DNA of 64,000 nucleotides from Geodermatophilus poikilotrophus (GTDB lineage Bacteria; Actinomycetota; Actinomycetes; Mycobacteriales; Geodermatophilaceae): the NCBI RefSeq assembly GCF_900111455.1, contig NZ_FOIE01000001.1, positions 186,001 to 250,000 on the forward strand, given 5' to 3'. A program made the translations under genes and the position numbers. Position 1 is the first letter of the stretch. Each line of letters begins with the position of its first letter. Of this stretch, positions 14,273-50,323 are shown piece after piece. The notes under the pieces are model-generated. The model worked only from the letters and a program-made list of their open reading frames with translations, did no database searches and was not told the origin of the DNA.

Positions 14273-14365
14273 CCGGCCCGGTCGCCCCGGGCCCGGCTCC
14301 GGAGCATCCCCGGGACACGCCGCCCGCGTGGCCCGGCAACCCCCTGCTCCTGGAAGGCGACCGTG

Positions 14366-14395
14366 CCCGGCCCGGCCCGGCCCGGCCCGGCCCGG
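14366..14395. repeat. CCCGG pentanucleotide tandem repeat (6 copies)
   Basis: Six perfect tandem CCCGG units lie in the non-coding gap between the SnoaL-like gene and the first dehydrogenase. They are long enough to be slippage-prone. No protein is read through them in a credible frame. Confidence 0.8.
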
Positions 14396-14552
14396 ACCGG
14401 CAGGGCGGGCCGGACGACTGCTGACCGTGCGACCCCTGACCGGACGCCGGCGCCGAACCCGTGAGCGGTGCGGTGGCGGGGCTCCGTTCCGCCCGGCCGG
14501 TCCCCCTGGGCCTAGGCTCGCGCCCTCGGCCGGCCCGACGAGAGGGACGTTG

Positions 14553-18024: not shown

Positions 18025-18840
18025 GTGACCGACACCATCGCCGAACACGCTGCGCACGACCTGAAGGCCGGCACGCCGCTGGTCGAGATGGAGGGCGTCG
18101 GCAAGAGCTACGGCGCCATCCGCGCTCTCGAGGGGATCAACCTGACGGTCAACGCCGGGGAGGTCGCCTGCGTGCTGGGGGACAACGGTGCCGGCAAGTC
18201 GACCCTCATCAAGATCATCTCCGGGCTGCACGGGCACACCGAGGGGACGTTGCGGGTCGACGGCCAGGAGCGCAAGTTCTCCTCACCGCGCGAGTCCCTG
18301 GACGCCGGGATCGCCACCGTGTACCAGGACCTGGCGGTGGTGGGCCTGATGGAGGTGTGGCGGAACTTCTTCCTCGGCTCGGAGATCCGCAAGGGCAAGT
18401 ACCCGATGGCGCCGCTGGACATCAAGGCGATGCGGGAGGTCGCCGACGCCGAGCTGCAGAAGATGGGCATCGTCGTCAAGGACATCAACCAGCCGATCGG
18501 CACGCTGTCCGGCGGGCAGCGGCAGTGCGTGGCCATCGCCCGGGCGGTCTACTTCGGCGCGCGGGTGCTGATCCTCGACGAGCCGACCGCGGCGCTGGGG
18601 GTGAAGCAGTCCGGCGTGGTGCTGAAGTACACCGCCGCGGCCCGCGACGCCGGCCTCGGGGTCGTCTTCATCACCCACAACCCGCACCACGCCTACCTGG
18701 TGGGCGACCACTTCATCATCCTCAAGCTGGGCCGTCGGGTGCTCGACAAGAAGCGCTCGGAGGTCAGCCTCGAGGAGCTCACCACCGAGATGGCCGGCGG
18801 CCAGGAGCTCGCGGAGCTCTCGCACGAGCTGAAGCGCTGA
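18025..18840 (+). CDS. Sugar/cyclitol ABC transporter ATP-binding protein
   Basis: The 271-residue single-domain ATPase has Walker [10 protein letters not shown] (about 53-61), Q-loop TVYQDLAVV, signature LSGGQRQ, Walker [13 protein letters not shown] and the H-loop FITHNPHHA. Unlike RbsA/MglA it has only one nucleotide domain, like FrcA, so the working transporter should hold a homodimer of it. It starts one base after the permease stop and ends at a hairpin terminator. Confidence 0.9.
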
Positions 18841-19048: not shown

Positions 19049-20236
19049 TCAGTGGCCGCTGGTGTGCCGCTCGGCCTGGGCGGTCAGCTCGGCGTCCAGG
19101 GCCTCGGGTGACCAGTCCTCCTGCAGCGCCCGCCAGGCCAGCTCGGCCTGCGTCTCGGGGGCCAGGCCGCCGATCGGCTGGTCGCGGTCGAGGTTCGTGG
19201 GGAAGGCGTAGCCCTCGGCGGAGGCGGCGACGACGTTGCGCAGCGTGCGCTCCTCGGCGCCGGCCGCCTTGCGAGCGCGCAGCACCGGGTGGAGCGCGCG
19301 GCACATCGCCGCGCGGTCGACGGTCTCCATCGCCCGCCCGAACGCCGAGGAGACCTGCAGCAGGTTGGCCATGCGGCGCACGTCGGCCGACCGGTTGGTG
19401 CCCGCGCCGTGGAACAGCGCCGGGTTGAAGAAGGCGGCGTCGCCCTTCCGCAGCGGCAGCTGGACGAAGTGGGCGTCGAAGTAGGCGGTGAACTCCGGTT
19501 GGTGGAAGGCGACGTAGCCGGGGGCGTACTTCTGGGAGTGCGGCAGGTACATCGTCGGCCCGGTCTCCACCGGCATGTCGCAGTGCGCCACCGCTCCCTG
19601 CAGCGTCATCACCGGCGAGAGCCGGTGCACGTGGGCGGGGTAGGCCAGGGCCTGCTCCTCGGACATGAAGCCCAGGTGGTAGTCGCGGTGGGCCACCTGC
19701 GCCTGCCCGCCGGGGTTGACCACGTTCACCTGGCTGGTGACCTGGTAGCCGCGGCCCAGCCACGCCTCCGAGACCAGCGCGAGGACGTCGTTGCCGTAGT
19801 AGGCGGCGAAGGCCTCGGGGTCGCGGACGGCGAACTTGTCCAGCGCACCCCACACCCGGTCGTTGGCGCCAGGCGTGGCGAAGTGGTCACCGCCGACGAC
19901 GCCGGCCGCCTTCTGCTCGTCGATCATCGCCTGGAAGACGGCGGTGGCCCGGTCGACGACGCCGGTGTCGGGGAAGGCGCCGGCGAAGACGACGATCCCC
20001 GGCCCGTCGGCGAGCGCGCGGGCCAGCTCGGCCTGGACGTCCCGGCGTCCCGCGGGGGTGGCGACGGAGTCGCGCAGGCGGGAGCCGTAGACGAGGACGT
20101 TCCCCCGGACCTCGTCGGCGCAGGGGTACTCGGCCAGGTCGGTGGTCGTCTCGACGACCGCGCGGAAGTCCTCCAGGCGGCAGTCGTCCGCGGTGAACCA
20201 GCCGGGAGCGGTGCGGGCGGTGACCGGTGCGGTCAT
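19049..20236 (-). CDS. Phytanoyl-CoA dioxygenase (PhyH)-family Fe(II)/2-oxoglutarate oxygenase
   Basis: The 395-residue protein has the facial-triad iron ligands of the PhyH family: H183 and D185 in AHRDYHLGF and H276 in FFNPALFHGAGTNRS, with R282 as the likely 2-oxoglutarate anchor. Members hydroxylate or oxidatively dealkylate small organic molecules using O2 and 2-oxoglutarate. The substrate is unknown, but such genes recur in polyol and inositol clusters. It lies 103 bases after the aldo/keto reductase on the same strand and converges with the ABC operon. Confidence 0.82.
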   Translation of the reverse strand: MTAPVTARTAPGWFTADDCRLEDFRAVVETTTDLAEYPCADEVRGNVLVYGSRLRDSVATPAGRRDVQAELARALADGPGIVVFAGAFPDTGVVDRATAVFQAMIDEQKAAGVVGGDHFATPGANDRVWGALDKFAVRDPEAFAAYYGNDVLALVSEAWLGRGYQVTSQVNVVNPGGQAQVAHRDYHLGFMSEEQALAYPAHVHRLSPVMTLQGAVAHCDMPVETGPTMYLPHSQKYAPGYVAFHQPEFTAYFDAHFVQLPLRKGDAAFFNPALFHGAGTNRSADVRRMANLLQVSSAFGRAMETVDRAAMCRALHPVLRARKAAGAEERTLRNVVAASAEGYAFPTNLDRDQPIGGLAPETQAELAWRALQEDWSPEALDAELTAQAERHTSGH

Positions 20237-20339
20237 GACGGGGGTCCTTCCGTACGGGGTCGGGTGCCGTCGAGCCTGACCGGCCGGAGCAGGGCCCACA
20301 AGGCCGCCGATCCCTCAAGGAGCCCTCAGCCGACGGGCC

Positions 20340-21176
20340 TCAGAACTCCTCCCAGACGTCCGGGTACTGGCCGTTGACCCGCGTCCCGTCGGCCAGCGTG
20401 GCGATGCCCGCCAGGTCCTCGTCGGTGAGCTCGAAGCCGTAGACGTCGAGGTTCTCGACCAGCCGGCCGCGGGACGACGCCTTGGGGAAGGTCACCAGGC
20501 CCTGCTGCACGTGCCAGCGCAGCACCACCTGGGCCGGCGTCCGGCCGTGCCGTGCGCCGATCTCGGCGAGCACCGGCTGCGCCAGCAGCTCGCCGCCGTT
20601 GGCCAGCGGCGACCAGGACTCGGTCACGATGCCGCGCCGCGCGTCGTCGGCCCGCTGCTCCGGCTGCGGGTCCCGGGGGTGGCACTCGATCTGGTTGACC
20701 GCCGGCACGGTCGAGCTCTCGGCCGCGAGCCGGTCGAGGTGCTCGGGCAGGAAGTTCGAGACGCCGATGGCGCGGGTGAGCCCCTCGGCGAGCAGCTCCT
20801 CCATCGCCCGCCAGGACTCCGCGTACCGGTCGAGCCGGGGGAGCGGCCAGTGGATGAGGTAGAGGTCGACGGAGTCGAGGCCCAGCCTGTCCAGGCTCGC
20901 GCGCAGCGCCTCCCTGGCCGAGTCGTACCCCTGGTCGCGGCCGCGCAGCTTGGTGGAGACGAACACCTCCTCCCGCGGCAGGCCCGAGTCGGCGATGCCC
21001 TGGCCGACGCCGCGCTCGTTCTCGTAGCTGGCGGCGGTGTCGACGAAGCGGTACCCGACCTCGAGGGCCTCCCGGACGATGCGCCGGGTCTCCTCGTCGG
21101 GGAGCCGGGCAGTGCCCAGGCCCAGCTGCGGCATGGCGACACCGTTGTCGAGCAGGACGGAGGGGACAGCGCTCAT
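20340..21176 (-). CDS. Aldo/keto reductase
   Basis: The 278-residue (beta/alpha)8 NADPH enzyme carries the catalytic tetrad: Asp in FVDTAASYENE, Tyr in the same motif, Lys in VSTKLRG, and His in YLIHWPLP. The cofactor-binding end is TFPKASSRGRLVENLDVYGF, of the 2,5-diketogluconate-reductase type. It reduces or oxidises a sugar or polyol carbonyl; the exact substrate is not readable. It is divergent from the LacI gene at 21249, which may control it and the dioxygenase. Confidence 0.88.
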   Translation of the reverse strand: MSAVPSVLLDNGVAMPQLGLGTARLPDEETRRIVREALEVGYRFVDTAASYENERGVGQGIADSGLPREEVFVSTKLRGRDQGYDSAREALRASLDRLGLDSVDLYLIHWPLPRLDRYAESWRAMEELLAEGLTRAIGVSNFLPEHLDRLAAESSTVPAVNQIECHPRDPQPEQRADDARRGIVTESWSPLANGGELLAQPVLAEIGARHGRTPAQVVLRWHVQQGLVTFPKASSRGRLVENLDVYGFELTDEDLAGIATLADGTRVNGQYPDVWEEF

Positions 21177-21248: not shown

Positions 21249-22292
21249 GTGGCGCACCCGTACCCGATCCGCGTGATCGCCCGCCAGGCAGGGCTCTCCG
21301 AGGCGACCGTCGACCGCGTCCTCAACCGGCGCGGCGGCGTGCGGCAGAGCACGGTCGACGAGGTGCACCGGGCCATCGCCGACCTGCACCGGCAGCGCTC
21401 CCAGGTGCGCCTGACCGGGCGGACGTTCTTCCTCGACCTGGTCGTCGACGCGCCGGAGCGGTTCTCCGCCGCGGTGCGGGCGGCCCTGGAGTCGCAGCTG
21501 CCGCTGGTGCGGCCGGCGACGTTCCGGGCGCGGTTCCACCTCGCCGACGCCCCGCCGGTGCCGGACCTGGTCGCCACCCTCGACGGCATCGCCCGGCGCG
21601 GGTCGCAGGGCGTCGTCCTCAAGGCCCCCGACTCCCCGCTCGTCGTCGCGGCGGTCGAGCGGCTGGCCGAGGCCGGGATCCCCGTGGTCACGCTGGTCAC
21701 CGACCTGCCCACCAGCCGCCGCGTCGCCTACGTCGGCCTGGACAACCGCGCCGCCGGCGCGACCGCGGCGTACCTGCTCGACCAGTGGCTCGGCGAGGAC
21801 GGCGGTGCGGTGCTGGTCACCCGGGGGACCGGCTCGTTCCGGGGCGAGGACGACCGGGAGATGGGCTTCCGCGCCACCGTGCGGACGGCGCGGCCCGGGC
21901 GCCGCCAGGTCGACCTGGTGGACGCGACCGGGGAGGACGACGTGCTGCGCGGGCTGGTCCGGGACGCGCTCGAGGCGGACCCGGGCATCGCGGCGGTCTA
22001 CTCGATGTACGCCGCCGGCGGGAACGACGCGACCGTCGCCGCCTTCGCCGACGCCGGGCGGACCTGCCGGGCGTTCGTGGCCCACGACCTGGACGCCGAG
22101 AACCTCGCGCTGCTGCGGGCCGGACGGCTGTCCGCGGTGCTGCACCACGACCTCGCGCTCGACCTGCGCCGCGCCTGCCACGTGGTGATGCAGGTCCACG
22201 GCGCGCTGCCGGGCACCCCGCGGTCCTGGCACTCGGGCGTCCAGGTCGTCACCCCGTACAACGTCCCGGTCGAGGTGCTGAGGGGCTCTTGA
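21249..22292 (+). CDS. LacI-family transcriptional regulator with sugar-binding domain
   Basis: The 347-residue protein has an N-terminal LacI headpiece (IRVIARQAGLSEATVDRVLN, residues about 6-25) and a type 1 periplasmic-binding effector domain (VVLKAPDSPLVVAAVERLAEAG, then AGATAAYLLDQWL). The headpiece reads ATVDRVLN instead of the usual ATVSRVLN, a form seen in LacI-like regulators beside inositol genes. It is followed by two dehydrogenase genes and is divergent from the aldo/keto reductase, so it likely responds to a polyol or sugar. Confidence 0.85.
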   Translation: MAHPYPIRVIARQAGLSEATVDRVLNRRGGVRQSTVDEVHRAIADLHRQRSQVRLTGRTFFLDLVVDAPERFSAAVRAALESQLPLVRPATFRARFHLADAPPVPDLVATLDGIARRGSQGVVLKAPDSPLVVAAVERLAEAGIPVVTLVTDLPTSRRVAYVGLDNRAAGATAAYLLDQWLGEDGGAVLVTRGTGSFRGEDDREMGFRATVRTARPGRRQVDLVDATGEDDVLRGLVRDALEADPGIAAVYSMYAAGGNDATVAAFADAGRTCRAFVAHDLDAENLALLRAGRLSAVLHHDLALDLRRACHVVMQVHGALPGTPRSWHSGVQVVTPYNVPVEVLRGS

Positions 22293-22386: not shown

Positions 22387-23394
22387 GTGGGGCTGGACGT
22401 CGGGGTCATCGGGGTCGGCATGATCGGCCAGGAGCACATCCGTAGGCTCGACGGCGGCCCCCGGGGCAGCCGCGTGGTGGCGGTGGCCGACGCGGACGCC
22501 GAGCGCGCCGCGACCGTGGCCGCGCAGCTGCCCGCCGCGAAGGCCCTGCCCAGCGGCGAGGAGCTGATCGTCTCGGACGCGGTCGACGCGGTGGTGGTCA
22601 CCTCCTGGGGGCCGACGCACGAGCCGTACGTGCTGGCCTGCATCGCCGCCGGCAAGCCGGTGTTCTGCGAGAAACCGCTGGCGACCACGCAGGAGGCGTG
22701 CCGGCGGATCGTCGACGCCGAGGTCGCGGCGGGTCGCCGGCTGGTGCAGGTGGGCTTCAACCGGCGCTACGACCCCGCGCACCGGGCGCTCAAGCTGGCC
22801 GTGGACGGCGGTGCGATCGGCGCCCCGCTGCTGGCGCACTGCGCCCACCGCAACGCGTCCGTGCCTGCGCACTACACGCGGGACATGTCGATCGCCGACA
22901 CCGCCATCCACGAGATCGACGAGCTGCGCTGGCTGTTCGGTCAGGAGATCGTCGCCGCGCAGGTCTTCACCCCCCGCAGGAGCAGCCGCGGGGGCGAGCT
23001 GCAGGACCCGCTGCTCGTGCTCTTCGAGCTGGCCGACGGCGTCCTCGCCGACGTCGAGGTGTCGGTCAACGTCCACTACGGCTACGAGATCCGCTGCGAG
23101 GTGTCGGGGGAGACCGGCACCGTCGAGCTGGCCGACTCCGCTCCGGTGCGCCTGCGCCGCGAGGGCGCCGTCGCCGGTCTGGTCCCGGCCGACTGGCGGG
23201 AGCGGTTCGCCCTGTCCTACGACGTCGAGCTGCGCGAGTGGGTCGACACCGTCGTCGCCGGGAGTCCGCCGCAGGGCCCCGGCGCCTGGGACGGCTACGC
23301 CGCACAGGTCGTGTCCGACGCGGCGCTGCAGTCGCTGCACTCCGGCGGCCGGGTGGCGGTCGAGCTCCCCGCGCGCCCCGAGCTGTACCGGTGA
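22387..23394 (+). CDS. Inositol 2-dehydrogenase-like (Gfo/Idh/MocA)
   Basis: The 335-residue enzyme has GVIGVGMIGQEHIRRL, CEKPLATTQE (Lys of EKP), QVGFNRRYDP, and the IADTAIHEIDELRWLF catalytic Asp/His segment. The HCAHRNASVPAHYT region matches that of the core-operon paralog at 43.4 kb closely, so it is probably an inositol dehydrogenase (myo- or another stereoisomer). GTG start with GAGGAGGGCG upstream. Its stop overlaps the GTG of the next dehydrogenase by 4 bases. Confidence 0.86.
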   Translation: MGLDVGVIGVGMIGQEHIRRLDGGPRGSRVVAVADADAERAATVAAQLPAAKALPSGEELIVSDAVDAVVVTSWGPTHEPYVLACIAAGKPVFCEKPLATTQEACRRIVDAEVAAGRRLVQVGFNRRYDPAHRALKLAVDGGAIGAPLLAHCAHRNASVPAHYTRDMSIADTAIHEIDELRWLFGQEIVAAQVFTPRRSSRGGELQDPLLVLFELADGVLADVEVSVNVHYGYEIRCEVSGETGTVELADSAPVRLRREGAVAGLVPADWRERFALSYDVELREWVDTVVAGSPPQGPGAWDGYAAQVVSDAALQSLHSGGRVAVELPARPELYR

Positions 23395-24428
23395 CGACGG
23401 ACCCCGCCGAGCCCCTGCGGATCGGGGTCCTGGGCGCCGCCCGCATCGCCGAGCGGGGCATCGCCGTCCCCGCCCGGGACACCGGCAGCCGGCTGGTGGC
23501 GGTCGCCGCCCGGGACCCGGAGCGGGCCGAGGCGTTCGCCCGGGCGCACGGCGTCGAGCGCGTGCTGCCCACCTACGCGGACGTCCTCGCCGACCCGGAC
23601 GTCGAGGTCGTCTACGACCCGCTGCCGAACGCGCTGCACGGTCCGTGGAACCTGGCCGCCGTCGCGGCCGGCAAGCACGTGCTGTCGGAGAAGCCGTTCG
23701 CCTCGAACGCGGAGGAGGCCGCCGAGGTCCGGGACGCGGCGCGGGCTGCGGGCGTCACGGTCATGGAGGGGTTCCACCACCTCTACCACCCGGTGGTGCG
23801 CCGGCTCCTCGACCTGGTGGACGCCGGCGAGCTGGGGGACGTCGTCCACGTCGAGGCGACGATCGCCATGCCCCCGCCGGACGACGGGGACCCGCGCTGG
23901 TCGCTCGAGCTCGGCGGCGGCGCCCTCATGGACCTCGGCTGCTACGGCCTGCACGCGCTGCGCAGCCTGGCGCCGTGGACGGGGGGTGGACCGGAGCCGG
24001 ACGCCGCCCGGGCCGGCGAGCGGGCGGGTGCCCCCGGCGTGGACGAGTGGCTCGACGCCGAGCTGCACTTCCCGTCCGGCGCCACCGCCGCCGTGCGCTG
24101 CAGCATGGTGCACCCGGACCGGGACTTCTCGCTGCGGGTCGTCGGCACCCGCGGGGAGGTGACGGCGCCGGCGTTCGTCGAGCCGAACCGGGACGACCGC
24201 CTCCTGGTGCGCACACCGGCGGGGGAGCGCACCGAGCACCTGGGCACCCGGACGTCGTACACCTACCAGCTGGAGGCGTTGGTCGAAGCACTGCGGCACG
24301 GGTCCCCGGTCCCCACCGGCGCGGACGACGCGGTCGCGACCATGACGCTGATCGACCGGTGCTACCGGCTCGCCGGGCTGCCGCCCCGGCCGCGGTTGCG
24401 GCACGAGCCGCACCGGGCCGGGGCCTGA
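23391..24428 (+). CDS. Gfo/Idh/MocA-family dehydrogenase (trans-dihydrodiol/xylose dehydrogenase-like)
   Basis: The 345-residue protein has the Rossmann motif IGVLGAARIAERGIAVPAR and the SEKPFASNAEEA catalytic Lys. The second domain contains VMEGFHHLYHPVVRRLLDLV and LGGGALMDLGCYGLHALR. This is the group containing dimeric dihydrodiol dehydrogenase and xylose or glucose-fructose oxidoreductase-like enzymes, distinct from the inositol dehydrogenase paralogs. Translation is coupled to the previous gene (GTGA overlap). It converges with the isomerase gene with 7 bases between stops. Confidence 0.85.
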   Translation: MTTDPAEPLRIGVLGAARIAERGIAVPARDTGSRLVAVAARDPERAEAFARAHGVERVLPTYADVLADPDVEVVYDPLPNALHGPWNLAAVAAGKHVLSEKPFASNAEEAAEVRDAARAAGVTVMEGFHHLYHPVVRRLLDLVDAGELGDVVHVEATIAMPPPDDGDPRWSLELGGGALMDLGCYGLHALRSLAPWTGGGPEPDAARAGERAGAPGVDEWLDAELHFPSGATAAVRCSMVHPDRDFSLRVVGTRGEVTAPAFVEPNRDDRLLVRTPAGERTEHLGTRTSYTYQLEALVEALRHGSPVPTGADDAVATMTLIDRCYRLAGLPPRPRLRHEPHRAGA

Positions 24429-24435: not shown

Positions 24436-25434
24436 CTACAGCTTCGCGGCCGCGGCGCGCAGGTTCTCGGCGGCCAGCGCCAGGCCCTCCAGGCGGTCGT
24501 AGGCGGCGTCCTCGTGCTCGATGTTGACCGCCATGTCGGGGTCGACCTCGGCCAGCGCGCGGAGGAACTCGGTCCAGTAGTCGACGTCGTGGCCGACGCC
24601 CACGGCCACGAACCGCCAGCCCGGGTTCTCCGGCCAGGCGGTGCACCAGAACCCGTAGCCGGTGGGCACCTTTCCCGGGGCGTCGGCCGGGACCCGCCCG
24701 AACGAGGTGTCGAGCACCCCGCGGATGTCGACCCCGGGGGTGATCATCGCGTCCTTGGCCGCGGCGTGGAACACCAGCGGGCCGAGGTCGCGGATGCAGG
24801 CCACGACGTCCATGCCCTGCCACATCAGGTGCGAGGGGTCCATCTCGGCGCCGATGTTGGTGGCGCCGATGGTGTCGACCAGCCTGCGCAGGGTCACCGG
24901 CGAGAAGACCAGGTTGTGCGGGTGCATCTCGATGGCCACCCGGACGTCGGAGGCGCGGGCGAGGGCGTCGATCTCCGTCCAGAACTCGGCCGCGACGCCC
25001 CACTGGTAGTCCAGGACGTCCAGGTAGACGCCGTCCCACGGGTTGACCACCCAGGACGGGTACCTGGCGTCGGGGTCCGACCCGGGCGTGCCCGACATCG
25101 TCACCACGTGCCTCACCCCGAGCAGGCCGGCCAGCTCGATGGTGCGGCGCAGGTCCTCGGCGTGCTTCGGGCCGACGCCGGGCAGCGGGTTCAGCGGGTT
25201 GCCGTTGCAGTTGAGCCCGGTCAGCTCCATCCCGCGGGAGGAGAAGGTCTCCAGGTAGTCCCGACGGGCCTGCTCGGACGCCAGCAGCAGGTCGACGTGG
25301 CAGTGCGGGGACGGGATGAAGCCGCCGGTGTTGACCTCGACGGAGGTCAGGCCGTCGGCCTGCAGCACGTCGAGGGCCTCGGCCAGGGGGCGGTCGTGCA
25401 GGCATGCGGTGTAGGCGCCGAGCTTCAGTGGCAT
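24436..25434 (-). CDS. Sugar phosphate isomerase/epimerase-family TIM barrel
   Basis: The 332-residue AP-endonuclease-2-like TIM barrel has metal-binding acidic and His residues in FIPSPHCHVD, VAIEMHPHNLVF, GAEMDPSHLMWQ and LVFHAAAKDAM. Enzymes of this fold are inosose dehydratases/isomerases, xylose isomerase-like, or 3-keto-sugar epimerases. It lies 17 bases after the adjoining dehydrogenase gene on the minus strand and is surely co-transcribed with it, so the pair probably oxidises a sugar or cyclitol and then isomerises or dehydrates it. A LacI-type operator heads the unit. Confidence 0.86.
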   Translation of the reverse strand: MPLKLGAYTACLHDRPLAEALDVLQADGLTSVEVNTGGFIPSPHCHVDLLLASEQARRDYLETFSSRGMELTGLNCNGNPLNPLPGVGPKHAEDLRRTIELAGLLGVRHVVTMSGTPGSDPDARYPSWVVNPWDGVYLDVLDYQWGVAAEFWTEIDALARASDVRVAIEMHPHNLVFSPVTLRRLVDTIGATNIGAEMDPSHLMWQGMDVVACIRDLGPLVFHAAAKDAMITPGVDIRGVLDTSFGRVPADAPGKVPTGYGFWCTAWPENPGWRFVAVGVGHDVDYWTEFLRALAEVDPDMAVNIEHEDAAYDRLEGLALAAENLRAAAAKL

Positions 25435-25451
25435 CGGGGATCGGCCTCCGG

Positions 25452-26651
25452 TCAGTGGGTCGGGATGGCTGCGGGGATCTGGATGGCGGCGCCGCCGGAC
25501 TGCGCGGACTGCACGACGGCCTGGACGATCTGCATCGTGTGCAGCCCGTCGGCGAAGGTGGCGTTCGGCGGCAGCGGGTCGGGCGTGCCGACGATCTGGT
25601 CGAGGAACGCGCGGCACTGGTAGACGAACATCTCGGCGTTGCCGCCGCCGACGCCCGGGGCCTGCATCGGGTACCCGCCGGCGAAGTAGGGCATCTGCGG
25701 GCCGACGACGACCTGCCGCGCGCCGCGGGTGCGGGCCTCGGGCTGGCGGTCGTCGACGAGGTACTCCGAGGGCCGGTGCCAGTCGAAGGACGCCCGTCCA
25801 TCCAACCCGTGGACGTCGAAGGCCAGCCCGTTGGGCATGCCGAAGGCGGTGCGCGACACCGAGAAGGACGCCGACAGGCCGGACTCGAAGCGGGCCGAGA
25901 ACACGGCGGTGTCCTCGTTCTCGACCTCGCCCATCTCCTCGCCCACCGGAGCGGCGTCGTGGCCCACCACGGCGCCGAGGGGGAGCGGCCGCTTGGCGAT
26001 GTGCGTGGTCAGCACCGCCCCGGACACCGACACGACCGGTCCGCAGAGGAACTGGCCGACGTCGATGACGTGGGCGCCGATGTCGCCGAGGGCACCGCTG
26101 CCGGGTCCGCCCCTGTACCGCCAGGTGAGCGGGCCGCGCGGGTCGCAGGCGTAGTCGCACCAGTAGCGGCCGTCGAACAGGGTCAGCTCGCCCAGCTCGC
26201 GGTTGCGCACGTGGTCGCGGATCGCGGCGATGGCGGGGGAGCGGCGGTACGTGTAGCCGACGGCGGTCACCACGTCGGCTCGCTCCTCCGCCGCCACCAT
26301 GGCCCGCGCGTCCTCCAGCGAGCCGGCCAACGGCTTCTCGCACAGCACGTGCTTGCCGGCGGCGATGGCCGCCTCGGCGATCGGCCGGTGCAGGGAGTTG
26401 CCGACGACGATGCTGACGGCGTCGATCGAGCGGTCCTCGACGACCTCCTCCCAGCTGGACACCGCCTTCTCGAAGCCGTAGCGGCGGGCCGCGTCGCGGG
26501 CCAGCTGCTCGTTGGCGTCGGCGACGGCCGCCAGCCGGACCGGCGGGAGCCCCTCCCCGAAGACGGTGTCCACCTGGCGGTACCCGGCGGCGTGGCTGCG
26601 GCCGGCCATCCCGGCCCCGATCACCGCCACGGACAGTGGTCGCTGCGGCAT
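25452..26651 (-). CDS. Gfo/Idh/MocA-family dehydrogenase, LacI-controlled
   Basis: The 399-residue protein has VAVIGAGMAGRSHAAGYR, LCEKPLAGSLEDA, GYTYRRSPAIAA and GSGALGDIGAHVIDVGQFL, the last supplying the catalytic His/Asp. The length and the YRGGPGSGALGDIG segment resemble levoglucosan dehydrogenase and 3-keto-glycoside oxidoreductases more than plain inositol dehydrogenase. It heads a two-gene unit with the isomerase and is divergent from a LacI regulator; an operator-like palindrome lies between them. Confidence 0.86.
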   Translation of the reverse strand: MPQRPLSVAVIGAGMAGRSHAAGYRQVDTVFGEGLPPVRLAAVADANEQLARDAARRYGFEKAVSSWEEVVEDRSIDAVSIVVGNSLHRPIAEAAIAAGKHVLCEKPLAGSLEDARAMVAAEERADVVTAVGYTYRRSPAIAAIRDHVRNRELGELTLFDGRYWCDYACDPRGPLTWRYRGGPGSGALGDIGAHVIDVGQFLCGPVVSVSGAVLTTHIAKRPLPLGAVVGHDAAPVGEEMGEVENEDTAVFSARFESGLSASFSVSRTAFGMPNGLAFDVHGLDGRASFDWHRPSEYLVDDRQPEARTRGARQVVVGPQMPYFAGGYPMQAPGVGGGNAEMFVYQCRAFLDQIVGTPDPLPPNATFADGLHTMQIVQAVVQSAQSGGAAIQIPAAIPTH

Positions 26652-26756
26652 GGCTGTTCTCCCCTCATCGGGTGGACGCCGGCCCGTGCGGTGCGGACGG
26701 CGGGTCTCGCGGACGTGGCACGCTCCCGCGGGGGAGACAGCCGGGCCCTGACGTCT

Positions 26757-26770
26757 TTAAAACGCTTTAA
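26757..26770. promoter_or_regulatory. LacI operator candidate 1
   Basis: TTAAAACGCTTTAA is a CG-centred palindrome with a single mismatched pair, the classic LacI/CcpA/PurR-type operator shape. It lies between the divergent dehydrogenase (start 26651) and LacI (start 26827) genes. A nearly identical site lies before the P450 gene. Confidence 0.75.
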
Positions 26771-26826
26771 GATGACGCCGATCACAGCAGGGTGCCGTGG
26801 TCGTGTCAAGGGAGGAGGTGGTCGTC

Positions 26827-27843
26827 GTGAGCGCGGAGGGCTCGCTGCGTCGTCCCCGCCTGCAGGACGTCGCCGCCGAGGCGGGGGTCTCGCCGGCGAC
26901 GGCGTCGCTCGTGCTGCGCGGCGTCGCGGGCCCCAGCAGCGCCACCCGCGAGCGCGTGCTCATCGCCGCCGGCCGGCTCGGGTACCGGCCCGACCGCGCG
27001 GCGAGCCTGCTGGCCCGCCGGCGCAGCAGGGTCATCGGCGTCCTGATGGACGTCCGCAGCAGCTTCCACGCCCAGCTCGTCGAGGACGTCCACGAGGCGG
27101 CCGAGGAGCACGGGTACGACCTGGTGCTCAGCACGGTGACCCGCACCCGCGACGAGGGGCGGGCGATCGAGACGCTGCTCGACTCACGCTGCGAGGCGCT
27201 GGTCCTGCTCGGCCCGGAGGCCCCCGCCTCACGGCTGGGCGTGCTGGACCGGCAGCTGCCCGTGGTGGCCGTCGGCCGCCCGGTGCCCTCGGCCGGTGTC
27301 GACGTCGTCCGGGTCGCCGACGAGGAGGGGGTCGCCCAGGCCGTCGACCACCTCGTCGGCCTCGGGCACCGCCGCATCGCCCACGTCGACGGCGGGCCCG
27401 GGGTCATCGCCGCCGGCCGGCGACGCGGCTACCAGCGCGCCATGCGCCGGCACCGGCTCGGATCCCACGTGCAGGTCGTGGCGGGTGACTCCGGCGAGGC
27501 GTCCGGAGCGCGGGCGGCGCGGACGCTGTTCGCGTCGGAGACGCCCCCGACCGCGGTCGTGACGTACAACGACGCCTCCGCCGTCGGCCTGCTCGACGCG
27601 CTGCTGCGCGGCGGCGTCGACGTCCCGGGCCAGGTGTCGGTGGTGGGCTACGACGACAGCCCGCTCTCGCGGCTCGCGCACGTCGACCTGACCACCGTCA
27701 GCCAGGAGTCCCGGGAGCAGATGCGGCACGCCGTCGCCGCGGTGGTCGAGCGGCTCGACGGCGGCCGCACCGGGCACCGCGAGGTCGTCGTCCCCCCGCG
27801 GCTGGTCGTGCGGGGGACGACGGCTCCACCGCCCGGGGACTGA
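26827..27843 (+). CDS. LacI-family transcriptional regulator
   Basis: The 338-residue protein has the headpiece LQDVAAEAGVSPATASLVLR (about residues 10-29) with the hinge AASLLARRRSRVIGVLMD, and a type 1 periplasmic-binding effector domain (QAVDHLVGLGHRRIAHVDGG; VSVVGYDDSPLSRLAHVDLT). GTG at 26827 is chosen because GGGAGGAGG lies 8 bases before it. Matching operators on both sides of the gene suggest it represses itself, the divergent dehydrogenase-isomerase pair and the downstream P450. Confidence 0.88.
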   Translation: MSAEGSLRRPRLQDVAAEAGVSPATASLVLRGVAGPSSATRERVLIAAGRLGYRPDRAASLLARRRSRVIGVLMDVRSSFHAQLVEDVHEAAEEHGYDLVLSTVTRTRDEGRAIETLLDSRCEALVLLGPEAPASRLGVLDRQLPVVAVGRPVPSAGVDVVRVADEEGVAQAVDHLVGLGHRRIAHVDGGPGVIAAGRRRGYQRAMRRHRLGSHVQVVAGDSGEASGARAARTLFASETPPTAVVTYNDASAVGLLDALLRGGVDVPGQVSVVGYDDSPLSRLAHVDLTTVSQESREQMRHAVAAVVERLDGGRTGHREVVVPPRLVVRGTTAPPPGD

Positions 27844-27906
27844 CCCGGCAGGCCGCGGGCTCCGTCCCGACGACCGGTTGACAGTGGCGTGGGTCACCGG
27901 CGAGTC

Positions 27907-27920
27907 TTGAAGCGCTTTAA
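27907..27920. promoter_or_regulatory. LacI operator candidate 2, before the P450 gene
   Basis: TTGAAGCGCTTTAA shares the CG-centred symmetry and the whole right half GCTTTAA with the site at 26757. It ends 23 bases before the P450 ATG, placing it across or just after the likely promoter, where a repressor would block transcription. Confidence 0.75.
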
Positions 27921-27943
27921 ACCCCCCGACCGTGGAGACCCCC

Positions 27944-30214
27944 ATGGCCCAAACCGCCACCGCTCCCGCCACCGAGATCGACTACAACCCGTTCGCGCCG
28001 GACTTCTACACGTCCGACCCGTTCGGGACGTACCGGCGGATGCGGGACGAGGCGCCCGTCTACTGGAGCGAGCGCTGGGGCTGGTACGCCCTGACCCGCT
28101 TCGACGACGTGCGGGCAGCGGCGCTCGACGCGGACACGTTCCGCAGCTTCGAGGGCATGGACATCGACGACAGCCGGCTGGAGCAGGTCCCGCCGGGGTC
28201 CATCGGCAGCATGGACAACCCGCGGCACGACCAGGTGCGCTCGGTGGTGCAGCCGTACTTCCTGCCGCGCCGGATCGCCCAGCTCGAGGACGGCGTCCGG
28301 GCGGTGGTGCGCGAACTCGTCGCGTCGTGGCGCGACCGGGGCGCGCTCGGCCGGGGCACGGTGGACGTCGCCCAGGAGCTGGCCTGGCCCATGCCCTTCG
28401 ACGTCTTCTTCCACCTCATGGGCCTGCCGAGCCGGCACGACCCGGACCCGCTCGAGCGGGCGCGGCGCGATCAGCTAGAGCACTGGACCCACGAGCTCAA
28501 GGACCGGGTGCCCGGCACCCCCCACCTGACCGAGGTGGCGCGGGCCGCGACGGCCGGCGTCCAGCAGTTCTTCATCGACCTGCTCGACGAGCGCCGCCGC
28601 TGCGGGCGGGACGACCTCGTCACGGAGTTCGTGAACGCCGACATCGACGGGGTGCCGTTCGTGGGCGAGCGGGTCACGACGGAGTCCGAGGTCAGCGGCC
28701 TGATGATGATCCTCTTCCTCGGCGGGGTGGAGTCCACCGCCGGGCTGACCGGCACGCTGTTCGAGCAGCTGGCCGAGAACCCCGACCAGCGGGCGCTGCT
28801 GCAGGCCGACCCGTCGCTGATCCCGGCCGCGGTGGAGGAGGCCATGCGCCTCACCACGCCGCTGCAGCTCACCGCCCGCACGACCTCGCGCGAGGTCACC
28901 CTGCACGGGGTGACGATGCCCGCCGGGAGCCGCGTCGTCCTCATCCCCGGCGCGGCCAACCGCGACGAGCGCCAGTTCCCCGACCCGGACACCTTCGACA
29001 TCACCAGGCCCCGGGGCCGCCACCTCGGCTTCGGCGAGGGCGTGCACGGGTGCCTGGGCGCGCCGCTGGCCCGTCTGGAGGCGCGGATCGCCCTGGAGGA
29101 GGCCCTGCCGGTGCTGGGGGACTACGAGCTTGCCGGCCCGCCGACCTTCTACCCGAGCTCGCCCAACATGTACGTCTGGAGGAACCTCCCGGTCACGTTC
29201 GGCGCGCCGGCCCGCCGGCCGCACGTCGAGGCCGTCCACCACCGGACGACGACCGTCACCCTCGCCACCTCCGAGTTCGAGGCCGAGGCGCGGGTGGCCG
29301 CCAAGGAGGAGGTGGCCGACGGCGTCGTCGCCCTGACCCTGCGCGAGGCCGGCGGCCGCCCGCTGCCCGCCTGGGAGCCGGGCGCGCACGTCGACCTCGT
29401 CCTCGACGGGGCACCCACCCGGCAGTACTCGCTGTGCGGCGGTGCCGCCGACCACTCGGAGTACCGCCTGGGCATCCTGCGCGACGCGGACGGCCGCGGC
29501 AGCTCACGGTTCGTGCACGACCGGCTGGCCGTCGGCGATCCGGTGCGGGTGCGCGGCCCGCGGAACAACTTCCCGCTGGTCGGCTCGCCGCGGTACCTGT
29601 TCATCGCCGGTGGCATCGGCATCACACCGGTCCTGCCGATGATCCGGGCGGCGGAGGCCGCGGGCGCCGACTGGCGACTGGTGTACGGCGGCCGGCAGCG
29701 GGCGTCCATGGCCTTCCTCGACGAGCTCGCGCCGTACGGCGACCGGGTGTCGGTCCGCCCGCAGGACGAGACCGGGCTGCTCGACCTCGACGGCCCGCTG
29801 GGGACGCCCCAGCCGGACACGCTCGTCTACTGCTGCGGCCCCGAGCCGCTGCTGGCGGCGGTCGAGCAGCGCTGCACCGGCTGGCCGCGGGGGGCGCTGC
29901 ACGTCGAGCGGTTCGCGCCCCGGCCCCAGGGCGAGCCGGCGCGGGCCGAGGCGTTCGAGGTCGTGCTGCAGCAGAGCGGGCTCACCCTGACCGTCCCGCC
30001 GGACCGGTCGATCCTGTCGGTCGTCGAGGAGGCGGGGGTCGGCGTCCTGTCCTCGTGCGCCGAGGGCACCTGCGGCACCTGCGAGACCGCCGTCCTCGAC
30101 GGCGTCCCCGACCACCGCGACTCCGTCCTCAGCGACGAGGAGCGGCAGGCGGACGACTGCATGATGATCTGCGTCTCCCGCGCCCGGGGCGACCGGCTGG
30201 TCCTCGACCTCTGA
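27944..30214 (+). CDS. Self-sufficient cytochrome P450 fused to FMN/[2Fe-2S] reductase (CYP116B-like, class VII)
   Basis: The 756-residue protein is a three-part fusion. The P450 domain (1 to about 395) has EEAMR (ExxR), GGVESTAG in the I-helix (E263-S264 where Glu/Asp-Thr is usual) and the heme loop FGEGVHGCLGAPLARLE with C370. A phthalate-dioxygenase-reductase-like FMN/NAD domain follows (about 430-650; RQYSLCGG, FIAGGIGITPVLPM, YCCGPEPLL). The C-terminal [2Fe-2S] ferredoxin has C705, C710, C713 and C743. It needs no separate redox partner. ATG at 27944 follows GGAG at 6 bases; a GTG at 27932 is an alternative. It is controlled by a LacI-type operator beside sugar or cyclitol genes, so an O-demethylase or hydroxylase role is inferred. 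Confidence 0.9.
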   Translation: MAQTATAPATEIDYNPFAPDFYTSDPFGTYRRMRDEAPVYWSERWGWYALTRFDDVRAAALDADTFRSFEGMDIDDSRLEQVPPGSIGSMDNPRHDQVRSVVQPYFLPRRIAQLEDGVRAVVRELVASWRDRGALGRGTVDVAQELAWPMPFDVFFHLMGLPSRHDPDPLERARRDQLEHWTHELKDRVPGTPHLTEVARAATAGVQQFFIDLLDERRRCGRDDLVTEFVNADIDGVPFVGERVTTESEVSGLMMILFLGGVESTAGLTGTLFEQLAENPDQRALLQADPSLIPAAVEEAMRLTTPLQLTARTTSREVTLHGVTMPAGSRVVLIPGAANRDERQFPDPDTFDITRPRGRHLGFGEGVHGCLGAPLARLEARIALEEALPVLGDYELAGPPTFYPSSPNMYVWRNLPVTFGAPARRPHVEAVHHRTTTVTLATSEFEAEARVAAKEEVADGVVALTLREAGGRPLPAWEPGAHVDLVLDGAPTRQYSLCGGAADHSEYRLGILRDADGRGSSRFVHDRLAVGDPVRVRGPRNNFPLVGSPRYLFIAGGIGITPVLPMIRAAEAAGADWRLVYGGRQRASMAFLDELAPYGDRVSVRPQDETGLLDLDGPLGTPQPDTLVYCCGPEPLLAAVEQRCTGWPRGALHVERFAPRPQGEPARAEAFEVVLQQSGLTLTVPPDRSILSVVEEAGVGVLSSCAEGTCGTCETAVLDGVPDHRDSVLSDEERQADDCMMICVSRARGDRLVLDL

Positions 30215-30356: not shown

Positions 30357-31358
30357 TCAACGGGGCGGGGCGGTGGTGCTCCGGACGACGAGCCGGGGCG
30401 GGACCACGAGCTCGCGCTGCTCGACGGGGACCCCGTCCAGCCGGTCGAGGGCGCGCCGGACGGCCAGCGTGGTCAGCCGCTCGACGTCCTGGGCGACGGA
30501 CGTGAGGTCGACCGAGGAGAGCCGCGCGAGACGGCTGTCGTCGTAGCCGGCCACGCTCACCTCACCGGGCACCGAGCGGCCCGCACGCCGCAGCACGTCC
30601 AGCAGGCCCACGGCACACCGGTCGTTGAAGACCGTGACCGCACCGGGCAGGGGGCCGGCCAGGAGGGCGCGCGCCGCGGCGGCGCCCTCCTCCTCGGTGA
30701 GCCCGCCGGGCACGACCCGCGGCTCGAGACCGTGCCTGCGCACCGCCCTCCGGTAGCCCCGCCGTCGCTCGGCCGCCCCGGGCGCCCGGCCGCCGTCGAC
30801 GTGCACGACGTCGCGGTGCCCGAGCGCCACCAGGTGGTCCACCGCCAGGTGCATGCCCTCGTCGTCGGCGGTCCGGACGACGTCGACCGCGGCGGACCGC
30901 ACGGACCGGGCGACGACCACCACGGGCAGGCGGGTGGCGAGGTCGGTCAGGTGCGCGGTGGGCGACGAGGGCCCGAGCAGCACCAGCGCCTCGCAGCGGT
31001 CCCGCAGCAGGCTGTCGACCGCTCGCTGCTCGCCGCGTCCCGGCGTGACGGCGCTCAGCGCCAGCTCGTACCCGGCCTTCTCGGCGGCGTCGTAGAGCCC
31101 GGCCAGCAGGTCGCCGTGGAAGGCGTGCTGGACACCGAACACCACGCCGAGCAGCCGGCTGCGCGAGCTGCGCAGCAGGCGGGCGCGGGTGTCGGGGCGG
31201 TAGCCGATCTCCTCGGCGGCGCGGCGCACCCGCTCGCGGGTCGCGGTGCTGGCGCCGGGGGCGTCCCGCATGACGATCGAGACGAGCGCCGTGGAGACCC
31301 CGGCGCGGGCCGCGACGTCGGCCAGGGTCGGCCGCCGGTCGGAGCTCGTCGAGGGCAC
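30357..31358 (-). CDS. LacI-family transcriptional regulator
   Basis: The 333-residue protein has the headpiece LADVAARAGVSTALVSIVMR and hinge RARLLRSSRSRLLGVVFGV, with an effector domain containing LAVDHLVALGHRDVVHVDGG and VSVAGYDDSRLARLSSVDLT. It is clearly paralogous to the LacI at 26.8 kb. The GTG at 31358 begins VPSTSSDRRPTLADVA; longer starts would run through the operator. Two perfect CTAGAACGTTCTAG palindromes lie in the divergent gap to the next dehydrogenase gene, its likely target. Confidence 0.88.
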   Translation of the reverse strand: MPSTSSDRRPTLADVAARAGVSTALVSIVMRDAPGASTATRERVRRAAEEIGYRPDTRARLLRSSRSRLLGVVFGVQHAFHGDLLAGLYDAAEKAGYELALSAVTPGRGEQRAVDSLLRDRCEALVLLGPSSPTAHLTDLATRLPVVVVARSVRSAAVDVVRTADDEGMHLAVDHLVALGHRDVVHVDGGRAPGAAERRRGYRRAVRRHGLEPRVVPGGLTEEEGAAAARALLAGPLPGAVTVFNDRCAVGLLDVLRRAGRSVPGEVSVAGYDDSRLARLSSVDLTSVAQDVERLTTLAVRRALDRLDGVPVEQRELVVPPRLVVRSTTAPPR

Positions 31359-31378
31359 CGGGCGAGCGTAGTCAGCTC

Positions 31379-31396
31379 CCCTAGAACGTTCTAGGG
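31379..31396. promoter_or_regulatory. LacI operator A (18-bp perfect palindrome)
   Basis: CCCTAGAACGTTCTAGGG lies 20 bases before the LacI start codon. Its 14-base core is repeated exactly at 31443-31456; the centres are 62 bases apart, close to six helical turns. Confidence 0.85.
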
Positions 31397-31442
31397 CGAT
31401 CCCCTTGACGGGGTAGGGGTCGGCCGTCACGCTGACTGCGTC

Positions 31443-31456
31443 CTAGAACGTTCTAG
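31443..31456. promoter_or_regulatory. LacI operator B
   Basis: CTAGAACGTTCTAG, identical to the core of operator A, ends 13 bases before the dehydrogenase ATG and follows a TTGACG hexamer at 31405-31410. A tetrameric LacI could bridge both sites. Confidence 0.85.
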
Positions 31457-31469: not shown

Positions 31470-32480
31470 ATGGCGAGCGAGACCGTGGGCGTGGCCCTGA
31501 TCGGGTCGGGCCGGATGGGGGCCTTCCACGCGGAGACGCTCGCCCTGCGGCTCCCGCACGCGCGACTGGCCGCCGTGGCCGACCCCGCACCGGGTGCCGC
31601 CGAGCGGCTGACCAGTGCGCTCGGTGCCGGCCGGGCGTACACCGACGTGGCGCAGCTGTGGGCCGACCCAGACGTCGACGCGGTCGTCATCGCCGCGCCG
31701 GCCCGGTCGCACGCCGACCTGGTGGTGGCCGCCGCGGCGGCGGGTCGGCACGTGTTCTGCGAGAAGCCGATGGCCGTCACGCTGCCGGACGCCGACCGCG
31801 CCATCGACGCCGCCCGCGGCGCGGGTGTGGTCCTGCAGGTCGGGTTCAACCGGCGGTTCGCCGCCGACTGGCGCGCGGCCCGGGCGCTGCTGGAGGCCGG
31901 CACCCTGGGGACCCCGCGCCTGCTGCGGTCGCTCACCCGCGACCCCGGGGGTTTCGACCCCGCCCGGGTCCTGCCGGACACGATCTTCCTCGAGACGCTG
32001 ATCCACGACTTCGACACGCTGCGCTTCCTGAACCCCGGCGCCGAGGCCGTGGAGGTCTCCGCCACCGCGGACGCGCTCGTGGAGCCGGCGTGGCGGGACC
32101 GCGGGCTGCTCGACACGGCGGTCGTCACCGTGCGGTTCGACAACGGGGCCATGGCGGTCGCCGAGGCGTGCTTCGAGGCCGCCTACGGCTACGACGTCCG
32201 CGGGGAGGTGCTCGGCTCCGGCGGCATGGCGACGATGGGCGACGGCCGGCGCAGCGGGATGGCCTTCTCCGGGCCGGCCGGGCGACTGGTCGAGACCGTC
32301 CGCGGTGACCAGGAGCTCTTCCCGGGTGCTTACACCGCCGAGCTGGGCGCGTTCGTCGAGGCCGTTCGCACCGGGTCGCCGGCGCCGGTGACCGGCGAGG
32401 ACGCCCGCGCGGCACTGGCGATCGCGCTGGCCGCGGCGGAGTCGGTGCGCACCGGCCGTCCCGTGCGGGTGGAGAAGTGA
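31470..32480 (+). CDS. Inositol 2-dehydrogenase-like (Gfo/Idh/MocA)
   Basis: The 336-residue protein has VALIGSGRMGAFHAETLA, FCEKPMAVTLPDADRAI, QVGFNRRFAADWRAARALLE, and the second-domain LETLIHDFDTLRFL with catalytic Asp/His. This pattern is that of inositol 2-dehydrogenases (IolG) acting on myo- or scyllo-inositol. It is the first gene of a two-gene unit under twin LacI operators, and its stop overlaps the GTG of the isomerase gene (4 bases). Confidence 0.88.
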   Translation: MASETVGVALIGSGRMGAFHAETLALRLPHARLAAVADPAPGAAERLTSALGAGRAYTDVAQLWADPDVDAVVIAAPARSHADLVVAAAAAGRHVFCEKPMAVTLPDADRAIDAARGAGVVLQVGFNRRFAADWRAARALLEAGTLGTPRLLRSLTRDPGGFDPARVLPDTIFLETLIHDFDTLRFLNPGAEAVEVSATADALVEPAWRDRGLLDTAVVTVRFDNGAMAVAEACFEAAYGYDVRGEVLGSGGMATMGDGRRSGMAFSGPAGRLVETVRGDQELFPGAYTAELGAFVEAVRTGSPAPVTGEDARAALAIALAAAESVRTGRPVRVEK

Positions 32481-33253
32481 CCGCGTACCGGCTGGCCGCC
32501 TCGGCCGAGATGCTCTTCCTCGACCTGCCGTTCGCCGAGCGCGTCCGGCGGATCGCCGACGCCGGCCTCGAGGTCGAGATCTGGGACTGGACGACCAAGG
32601 ACGTCGACGAGCTGGTGGCGACCGGCGCGACCTTCTCCTCGATGACCGGCTACGTCACCGGCACCCTGGCGGACCCCGCCGGCGCCGAGGAGCTGCTGCG
32701 CACCGCCGAGCAGTCCCTCGCCGTCGCCGAGCGGCTGGACTGCCCGCGGCTGAACGTCCACGGGACCGGGCTGGACGGCCGGGGGCTGCCGGTGGTGCCC
32801 ACCGAGGTCGTGACCCCGGCGATGTGGCTGACCGCCGCGCGCACGCTGGAGCGTCTGGCCGCACTGGGGGAGCGGGCCGGGCGGGTCTTCACCCTGGAGA
32901 ACCTCAACACCGCCGTCGACCACCCGGGCACGCCGTTCGCCCGTGCCGCCGACACGATCGCGCTGGTGGAGGCGGTCGGCAGCGCGCACCTGCGGCTCAA
33001 CCTCGACCTCTACCACGCGCAGATCGGTGAGGGGAACCTCGTCCAGCTGGTGGAGCGGGCGCTGCCGCTGGTGGGGGAGATCCAGGTCGCCGACGTCCCG
33101 GGCCGGTGCGAGCCGGGCACGGGGGAGATCTCCCACCCGGCGATCGCGGCCGCCCTCGACCGGCTCGGTTATCCCGGCGTCGTCGCGCTGGAGGGCTGGG
33201 CCTCCGGCGACCCGGCGCAGGCCCTCGAGAGCTTCCGCACCGCCTACTCCTGA
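32477..33253 (+). CDS. Hydroxypyruvate isomerase-like TIM barrel
   Basis: The 258-residue protein has the hydroxypyruvate isomerase (Hyi/OtnI) pattern: FLDLPFAERVRRIADAGLEVEIWDW, LNVHGTG, VFTLENLNTAVDHPG (metal Glu), LRLNLDLYHAQIGEGNLVQL (metal Asp/His), VQVADVPGRCEPGTGEISHP (here IQVADVPGR) and VALEGWASGD. It could isomerise hydroxypyruvate or an inosose-derived keto acid. It is translationally coupled to the preceding dehydrogenase and shares the same LacI control. Confidence 0.88.
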   Translation: MTAYRLAASAEMLFLDLPFAERVRRIADAGLEVEIWDWTTKDVDELVATGATFSSMTGYVTGTLADPAGAEELLRTAEQSLAVAERLDCPRLNVHGTGLDGRGLPVVPTEVVTPAMWLTAARTLERLAALGERAGRVFTLENLNTAVDHPGTPFARAADTIALVEAVGSAHLRLNLDLYHAQIGEGNLVQLVERALPLVGEIQVADVPGRCEPGTGEISHPAIAAALDRLGYPGVVALEGWASGDPAQALESFRTAYS

Positions 33254-42391: not shown

Positions 42392-42419
42392 GACTGCCTC
42401 TCTGGGGGTCGGTCCGCCG

Positions 42420-45450: not shown

Positions 45451-45481
45451 CTGTTGTCTCCTCCGTGGGCGGGCGTGCGGA

Positions 45482-48339: not shown

Positions 48340-48353
48340 CGGAGGAGGGCCCT

Positions 48354-50247: not shown

Positions 50248-50323
50248 GGTGCTCCGTCCCCTCGCCCGTCGACGTCCGCCTGCCTCTGGGACTGTGCTCC
50301 GGGCCACACCGACGTGTCAAGAC

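Follow-up and report, generated by a model that had tools for sequence, protein, structure and literature searches.

Several described systems resemble parts of the locus examined here, a block of genes around a cytochrome P450 fusion in Geodermatophilus poikilotrophus. Class VII self-sufficient P450s (CYP116B, for example P450RhF and CYP116B46) carry on one chain a P450, a PDR-type reductase using flavin mononucleotide (FMN) and nicotinamide adenine dinucleotide (NAD), and a [2Fe-2S] ferredoxin, in that order. To open a methyl ether, a P450 hydroxylates its methyl carbon; methylated inositols such as pinitol (D-pinitol is 3-O-methyl-D-chiro-inositol) are abundant in plants. In marine bacteria, a P450 demethylates 6-O-methyl-D-galactose to give galactose and formaldehyde in equal amounts (PMC10033563). 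For rhizopine (3-O-methyl-scyllo-inosamine), a complex of oxygenase and ferredoxin has been proposed to feed the inositol pathway, with mocDEF as the catabolic genes (PMC10107442). The stretch analysed, called the window below, comprises 64,000 nucleotides of contig NZ_FOIE01000001.1 (positions 186,001 to 250,000; G+C 74.6%) from a genome of 4.83 Mb, labelled G000; other genomes and loci carry G and L numbers. At 27944..30214 (+) it encodes a P450-reductase-ferredoxin fusion of 756 residues, which very probably has a role in cyclitol catabolism. Its reaction is probably O-demethylation, and pinitol is our guess for the actual substrate.

As in the methyl-galactose system, a P450 would remove a methyl ether from a polyol carbon source and pass the product into a standard pathway, here as proposed from genes alone. 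The marine system uses a separate ferredoxin and ferredoxin reductase and lies near a zinc alcohol dehydrogenase gene (PMC10033563), whereas the P450 studied here is fused to its redox partners and stands at an inositol locus. As in the catabolism of myo- and D-chiro-inositol (iol), the genes iolA, iolC, iolD and iolE and an inositol-type importer are present; unlike plain iol, there is also the P450 block. To our knowledge, no P450 belongs to the iol pathway, and MocDEF is not P450-based. Among the matches listed in one open-access library, there is no described link of a P450 to inositol catabolism or pinitol demethylation, and no account of how soil bacteria open the methyl ether of an inositol. 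This suggests that an inositol pathway with an oxidative demethylation module in front of it is new, the nearest printed ideas being methyl-galactose demethylation by a P450 and, from its title, the ferredoxin oxygenase of rhizopine catabolism. Pinitol is reported to be one of the compounds that increase in root exudates during drought (PMC12573493). Since the enzyme is a single chain, its partners recur and its operator is clean, the question can be put directly to experiment, and the arrangement could serve as a genomic marker for possible methyl-inositol use.

An earlier reading of the stretch, made without database searches and called the sequence-only reading here, had described the fusion, and its residues and domains are confirmed as counted. 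The Pfam order along the product is p450, NAD_binding_1 and Fer2: a P450 domain to about residue 424, then a PDR/VanB-type FMN-NAD reductase and a plant-type [2Fe-2S] ferredoxin, so that the class VII-type order is found on one chain. The P450 domain has the heme motif FGEGVHGCLG with C370 and the ExxR motif as EAMR at 299, and the ferredoxin cysteines C705, C710, C713 and C743 have the spacing C-X4-C-X2-C-X29-C. The motifs RQYS at 493 and GGIGITP at 556 are present and would fit an FMN-containing, NAD(P)H-driven and self-sufficient enzyme.

The same reading had placed the P450 in CYP116B, and this assignment does not hold. The full-length fusion has its best matches in the Protein Data Bank (PDB) with 6kbh and 6laa, which we take to be CYP116B enzymes. 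The P450 domain alone is nearest to 8fbc and 6gmf, and 6kbh and 6laa are not among its 11 matches at E≤1e-50. Membership of a P450 family takes about 40% identity or more. The domain is 28-33% identical to all seven other P450-PDR fusions compared (called CYP116-type from architecture and recall), no closer than to two unrelated P450s encoded in its own genome (32% each). In a tree, 16 orthologues form one clade with 100/100 support, separate from the seven fusions, which are not one group themselves. Membership of CYP116 or CYP116B is therefore rejected for the P450 domain.

The reductase domain is 45-52% identical to those of the seven fusions and mostly 50-66% identical to stand-alone reductases of the family, with 76% for one in G048. 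Unlike in CYP116B, the P450 is a separate gene from the reductase in several relatives, and the orthologue clade mixes fused and two-gene forms. The reductase tree, which also intermixes fused and separate forms, is poorly resolved (13 of 30 inner branches are open). Judged by the domain identities and the P450 clade, the fusion has a class VII-like architecture but a P450 from outside CYP116, and it may have arisen separately from the CYP116 fusions. It would thus add a P450-reductase-ferredoxin lineage with a non-CYP116 P450.

An AlphaFold model gives the P450 an ordinary fold (pLDDT, the predicted local distance difference test, 82.7). A fold search with the domain recovers the general P450 fold only, and fold does not decide the substrate; CYP116B entries are not among the best 50 matches listed, which has no bearing on membership. 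Before the C helix there is a polar stretch, (E/D)G(M/I)D(I/L)D, whose two Asp residues are invariant in 21 of 21 orthologues and which is absent from nine other aligned P450s. Its position suggests that it lines the pocket, where it would suit the hydroxyls of a polyol.

The evidence for a role in cyclitol catabolism comes from the neighbours of the P450 in other genomes. A collection of contigs from 84,980 species was scanned with two short peptide patterns, and 31 loci, relatives holding at least one pattern, were retained. They come from Geodermatophilus, Blastococcus, Modestobacter, Actinomycetospora, Pseudonocardia, Nocardioides, Marmoricola, Nostocoides and Phycicoccus, and from metagenome-assembled genomes (MAGs): another member of Nocardioidaceae, one each from Frankineae and Frankiales, and two from Chloroflexi, which may be misbinned because their contigs are short. 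The reductase is fused to the P450 or directly follows it in 25 of the 31 loci, and LacI relatives adjoin the P450 in most. Matches of at least 60% to iolA, iolC or iolD lie within 10 kb of the P450 in 18 loci (19 were flagged, and L086 was excluded because its matches are short pieces of kinases), from Geodermatophilaceae, Pseudonocardiaceae, Intrasporangiaceae and one Frankineae MAG. Seven of the 13 loci without a counted core iol gene are no longer than 11.1 kb (L091, L102, L104, L105, L106, L107 and L112); three others (L087, L094 and L099) carry the larger block, and L086 is 18 kb from iolD. The importer ATPase or binding protein is found at 50% or more in 20 of the 31, and a Hyi-type TIM-barrel gene in 16. 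The linkage to iol genes, importer, iolG-like gene and Hyi-type gene thus recurs across families, and the tie to cyclitol catabolism that had been proposed from the window is upheld.

The tightest operons leave little space between these partners. L051 and L052 keep the gene order P450, reductase, iolG-like, Hyi-type, and neighbouring genes there either overlap or lie no more than 14 bases apart. A single strand of L071, a locus from a different family of the order, carries PhyH, iolG-like, Hyi-type, P450, reductase, LacI and TIM-barrel genes, with gaps of 8-11 bases from the iolG-like gene through the reductase and of 101-117 bases elsewhere. In Actinomycetospora (L092, L100 and L110), PhyH, iolG-like (36%), iolE-like (32%), Hyi-type and fusion genes are co-directional behind an operator, the gaps being measured in L100. 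Within the family, 112 genomes were searched with up to nine candidates scored per genome, and a near full-length match to the fusion (at least 72%) was found in 12. Further genomes of the family have a separate P450 gene, 65-67% identical, followed by the reductase in L051, L052 and L054 and by the iolG-like gene instead in L050, L053 and L055. An order-wide draw gave a P450 orthologue in 12 of 397 genomes at E≤1e-110; a phylum-wide draw of 396 genomes gave none at E≤1e-100 besides the window's own.

Two loci have settings of their own. In L112 (3501-11083, a Chloroflexi MAG), where the reductase precedes the P450, a P450 fragment, the reductase and the orthologous P450 stand in a row, and another P450 adjoins a sugar importer of the ATP-binding cassette (ABC) type and two LacI genes. 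In L101 (12282-17211, Nocardioides bruguierae), the fusion lies beside a class II aldolase, a GntP-type transporter and a kinase with SBD_N and NBD_C domains (DUF1537-type), a sugar-acid setting.

Among 26 genomes of the genus, a P450 orthologue (at least 63%) is present in 12, and the iolG-like gene and the binding protein (at least 66%) are present in the same 12; four other genomes have a binding protein at 43-45%. The Hyi-type gene occurs in 11 of the 12 and in none of the other 14, and in the twelfth the contig stops inside the iolG-like gene. PhyH occurs in 10 of the 12 and likewise in none of the 14. The core gene iolD is present in 20 of the 26 (12 of 12 with the P450, 8 of 14 without; Fisher test, p = 0.017) and lies within 20 kb of the P450 in 9 of the 12. 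In the eight genomes with iolD and without the P450, the 20 kb around iolD hold no matches to the P450, reductase, iolG-like gene, Hyi-type gene or importer. These eight nevertheless keep iolA, iolC, iolD and iolE, and thus the iol core without the P450 block; in one of them, G053, a relative of the TIM-barrel gene at 24436 lies beside iolA. In addition, two P450 subfamilies that are about 65% identical take the same position in this locus, one or the other depending on the Geodermatophilus genome, which looks like a replacement in place (L048 8828-10033 and L049 9898-11133, compared with 27947-29215 of the window).

The block is also marked by predicted operators. A LacI-family regulator is encoded at 26797..27843 (+; start 26797 or 26827). 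One LacI-type operator, TTAAAACGCTTTAA at 26757..26770, lies between this gene and the unit of a Gfo/Idh/MocA dehydrogenase and a TIM-barrel protein, and the other, TTGAAGCGCTTTAA at 27907..27920, precedes the P450 about 23 bases downstream of a TTGACA element. They share 12 of 14 core bases; the near-identity claimed for them by the sequence-only reading stands. The exact pattern TTRAARCGCTTYAA has only these two sites in the 4.83-Mb genome, and a 16-base palindrome with up to three mismatches matches twice in the window, with two matches in none of 100 dinucleotide shuffles. Five relatives searched with the exact pattern have one or two sites each, all at the P450 locus; a reversed control pattern gave none in any of the six genomes.

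With up to three mismatches, TTGAAGCGCTTCAA matches 44 times over 746 kb of loci, compared with 4 times in one Markov draw. An operator-like site of this kind is found in 25 of 33 P450-bearing loci. It stands directly before the P450 in 17 of them (Geodermatophilus, Blastococcus, Nostocoides, Phycicoccus, Pseudonocardia and the MAG L054), and in other loci between LacI and the TIM-barrel or PhyH unit. Upstream of the operator, TTGACA is found in 10 of 12 Geodermatophilaceae fusions and TTGACG in the other two. The simplest reading of these predicted sites is control by the local LacI repressor. A second LacI-family regulator is encoded at 30357..31430 (-), divergent from the iolG-like and Hyi-type pair. 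Between it and the iolG-like gene (31420-31475), the window has a different palindrome, TAGAACGTTCTA, and the second regulator may therefore control that pair.

The block is larger than the unit first described from the window, since it also takes in the iolG-like and Hyi-type pair (31470-33253), the importer (15922-18840), PhyH (19049) and the core iol operon. The operon lies beside the P450 at 40898..50307 (-), with iolA at 40898, a TIM-barrel gene at 42420, iolE at 44458, iolD at 45482 and iolC at 49285. The products of iolD, iolC and iolA (methylmalonate-semialdehyde dehydrogenase, MMSDH) score over their model cut-offs, and that of iolE scores 138 bits against 290. The importer consists of a CUT2 sugar-binding lipoprotein (15922..16902, +), a permease with the BPD_transp_2 domain (16962..18023, +) and an ATPase (18025..18840, +), the last two assigned by family match. 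The binding protein best matches PDB entry 4ru1 (321 bits across 295 residues). This entry is ACEI_1806 of Acidothermus, which is described as a verified transporter of myo-inositol in a proteomics paper on mycobacteria (PMC10747050). By homology, the importer is predicted to be an inositol-type CUT2 system.

Dehydrogenases are encoded on both sides of the P450. The iolG-like enzyme, a putative inositol dehydrogenase (31470..32480, +), has 3ezy as its best PDB match and overlaps by four bases the gene for the Hyi-type TIM-barrel protein (32477..33253, +), a putative isomerase. A Gfo/Idh/MocA dehydrogenase at 22393..23394 (+; scanned as 22306-23394) is nearest to the model NF052679 for inositol 2-/D-chiro-inositol 1-dehydrogenase. 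Another dehydrogenase of this superfamily follows at 23388..24428 (+, by family match), and a putative LacI-family regulator, read from its own sequence, lies upstream of both (21251..22292, +).

O-demethylation would best account for why an inositol pathway has an oxygenase at its head. Much the same arrangement is kept by relatives in several families, and removal of the methyl group from a plant sugar-alcohol such as pinitol is therefore the most likely reaction. We favour, with confidence somewhat better than even, a reading in which an ordinary inositol pathway is extended by an accessory module for methyl-cyclitols, with the fusion as its entry oxygenase, releasing formaldehyde. The importer would take up a mono-O-methyl inositol, D-pinitol at best guess, though ononitol and sequoyitol are also candidates. 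LacI would come off both operators in response to this compound or to one of its metabolites. Electrons would pass from NAD(P)H through the reductase domain and the [2Fe-2S] domain to the heme, and the P450 would hydroxylate the methyl group to a hemiacetal that collapses to formaldehyde and free inositol. The iolG-like dehydrogenase, in this genus together with the chiro-type enzyme at 22393, would oxidize the inositol to an inosose, and the Hyi-type protein would isomerize this to 2-inosose for consumption by IolE, IolD, IolC and IolA. The formaldehyde would enter the cell's general mycothiol-dependent route by way of S-(hydroxymethyl)mycothiol dehydrogenase, an enzyme that scores over its family cut-off in 11 of 12 genomes searched.

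Pinitol is favoured because its demethylation gives D-chiro-inositol, a compound that reaches the core pathway only after the action of a dehydrogenase and an inosose isomerase. This is how D-chiro-inositol enters in Bacillus, with IolG and IolI. Here, the iolG-like and Hyi-type pair and the chiro-type dehydrogenase at 22393 could supply the two steps.

A broader proposal is more tentative, and we hold it at somewhat less than even confidence. A non-CYP116 P450 family with a fused or adjoining VanB-like reductase may be the missing bacterial O-demethylase of plant methyl-inositols, within a portable module (LacI, importer, P450-reductase, iolG-like dehydrogenase and Hyi-type isomerase) that has come to lie next to the iol operon in a number of actinobacterial families, and perhaps also in Chloroflexi. 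In this proposal, a PhyH-type Fe(II)/2-oxoglutarate oxygenase would be a second demethylase acting at another methyl position. It is the second oxygenase of the block (19049..20299, -; HRD at 204 and HGAGTNR at 297), co-occurs with the P450 block and stands first in the P450 operon of Actinomycetospora, and is possibly a demethylase on these grounds.

Several observations weigh against the proposed demethylation pathway. The sequence-only reading had asked whether the P450 might be found elsewhere with no link to these genes; because the linkage recurs, this check comes out in favour of that reading, with two exceptions, L095 and L101, where the 10 kb around the P450 contain no match of 60% or more to a core iol gene. 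The Hyi-type gene is missing from 15 of the 31 loci, including the long loci L093, L095, L101, L108, L109, L113 and L114, and the iolG-like and Hyi-type enzymes are therefore not universal partners. Eight of the 33 P450-bearing loci (L053, L055, L091, L095, L101, L102, L106 and L112) have no operator at up to three mismatches. The dehydrogenase at 22393 (390 bits, cut-off 540) and the iolG-like enzyme (297 bits against TIGR04380, cut-off 355) both fall below their model cut-offs. In the genus, the presence of the P450 on the iolD tree takes only three changes. The co-occurrence rests on few events, and its numbers overstate the case because the genomes are related; recurrence across families carries more independent weight. 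In G000, G048, G035 and G111, the 20 kb to either side of the P450 do not include the mycothiol-dependent enzyme, and in G052 the distance is 21 kb; none of 16 unmatched neighbour open reading frames (ORFs) scanned in relatives was identified as formaldehyde-handling. Finally, the solved P450s most similar in fold, among the matches listed, have steroids, lipids and macrolides as substrates.

The sequence-only reading had offered two kinds of substrate, and methylated inositol is now the favoured one; the glycoside is weaker, since what recurs next to the P450 is iol genes and an inositol-type importer. We rank the glycoside reading second and consider it unlikely. It would have the P450 O-demethylate a methylated sugar or glycoside, with the dehydrogenase at 25452..26651 (-) and the TIM-barrel protein at 24436..25434 (-) acting like LgdA and LgdB1 on a 3-keto intermediate and the iol genes as mere neighbours. 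The levoglucosan pathway LgdA-LgdB1-LgdC does pair such dehydrogenases with TIM-barrel eliminases of the same superfamilies, and its description makes no mention of a P450 in the main text (PMC10066097). As first described, the LacI, Gfo/Idh/MocA and TIM-barrel genes do lie beside the P450, each with its Pfam match (the TIM-barrel protein, isomerase/epimerase-like, to AP_endonuc_2), and one operator type is common to the dehydrogenase-TIM unit and the P450. The enzyme at 25452 and a further dehydrogenase of the same levoglucosan/scyllo-inositol dehydrogenase group (14328..15728, +, upstream of the importer) are both nearest to the levoglucosan dehydrogenase model NF052479, and their best structure is 6a3f. 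However, each scores 280 bits, far under the cut-off of 650, and an identity as LgdA is rejected for both. The scyllo-inositol dehydrogenase 5ya8 also scores close to 6a3f (216 compared with 248 bits for the enzyme at 25452, and 227 compared with 263 for that at 14328). The enzyme at 25452, which had been taken for a key partner of the P450, loses that place, since it is found in 7 of the 31 loci and is absent from the tightest operons (L051, L052 and L071); the TIM-barrel gene at 24436 is found in 15.

Next comes the improbable reading that the P450 attacks the ring of the inositol, or another cyclitol ether or amine, rather than a methyl-inositol; its substrate might then be, for example, rhizopine or another methylated aminocyclitol, or the glycoside of a cyclitol. 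The linkage pins the class of substrate better than the reaction, and for rhizopine catabolism the literature proposes a ferredoxin oxygenase complex that supplies the inositol pathway (the title of Bahar et al. 1998, in PMC10107442). However, no aminotransferase or ammonia-lyase is found among the window proteins of the block that were scanned, which are part of its ORFs. Last, the fold matches given above and the 14 P450 matches in the host genome, some two per gene, would fit the very improbable reading that the P450 oxidizes an unrelated hydrophobic compound as a passenger at the iol locus; a chance neighbourhood is unlikely because the P450 nearly abuts iolG-like and Hyi-type genes in operons, recurs with them in several families and has an operator found nowhere else in the genome.

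Apart from these enzymes and the demethylation pathway proposed for them, the window encodes an aldo-keto reductase next to PhyH (20340..21176, -), nearest to the DkgA model (293 bits, cut-off 425). A zinc alcohol dehydrogenase with no substrate assigned lies upstream in L093. Some stand-alone reductases have neighbours of other kinds, with the ORFs named from their first residues: those at L027 and L028 adjoin a putative VanA-like Rieske oxygenase. The reductase of G048 that is 76% identical to the reductase domain of the fusion (L056, 9286-10278) adjoins a dihydropteroate-synthase-like ORF, and near it are a Rieske-like ORF and a mycothiol-dependent formaldehyde dehydrogenase-like gene.

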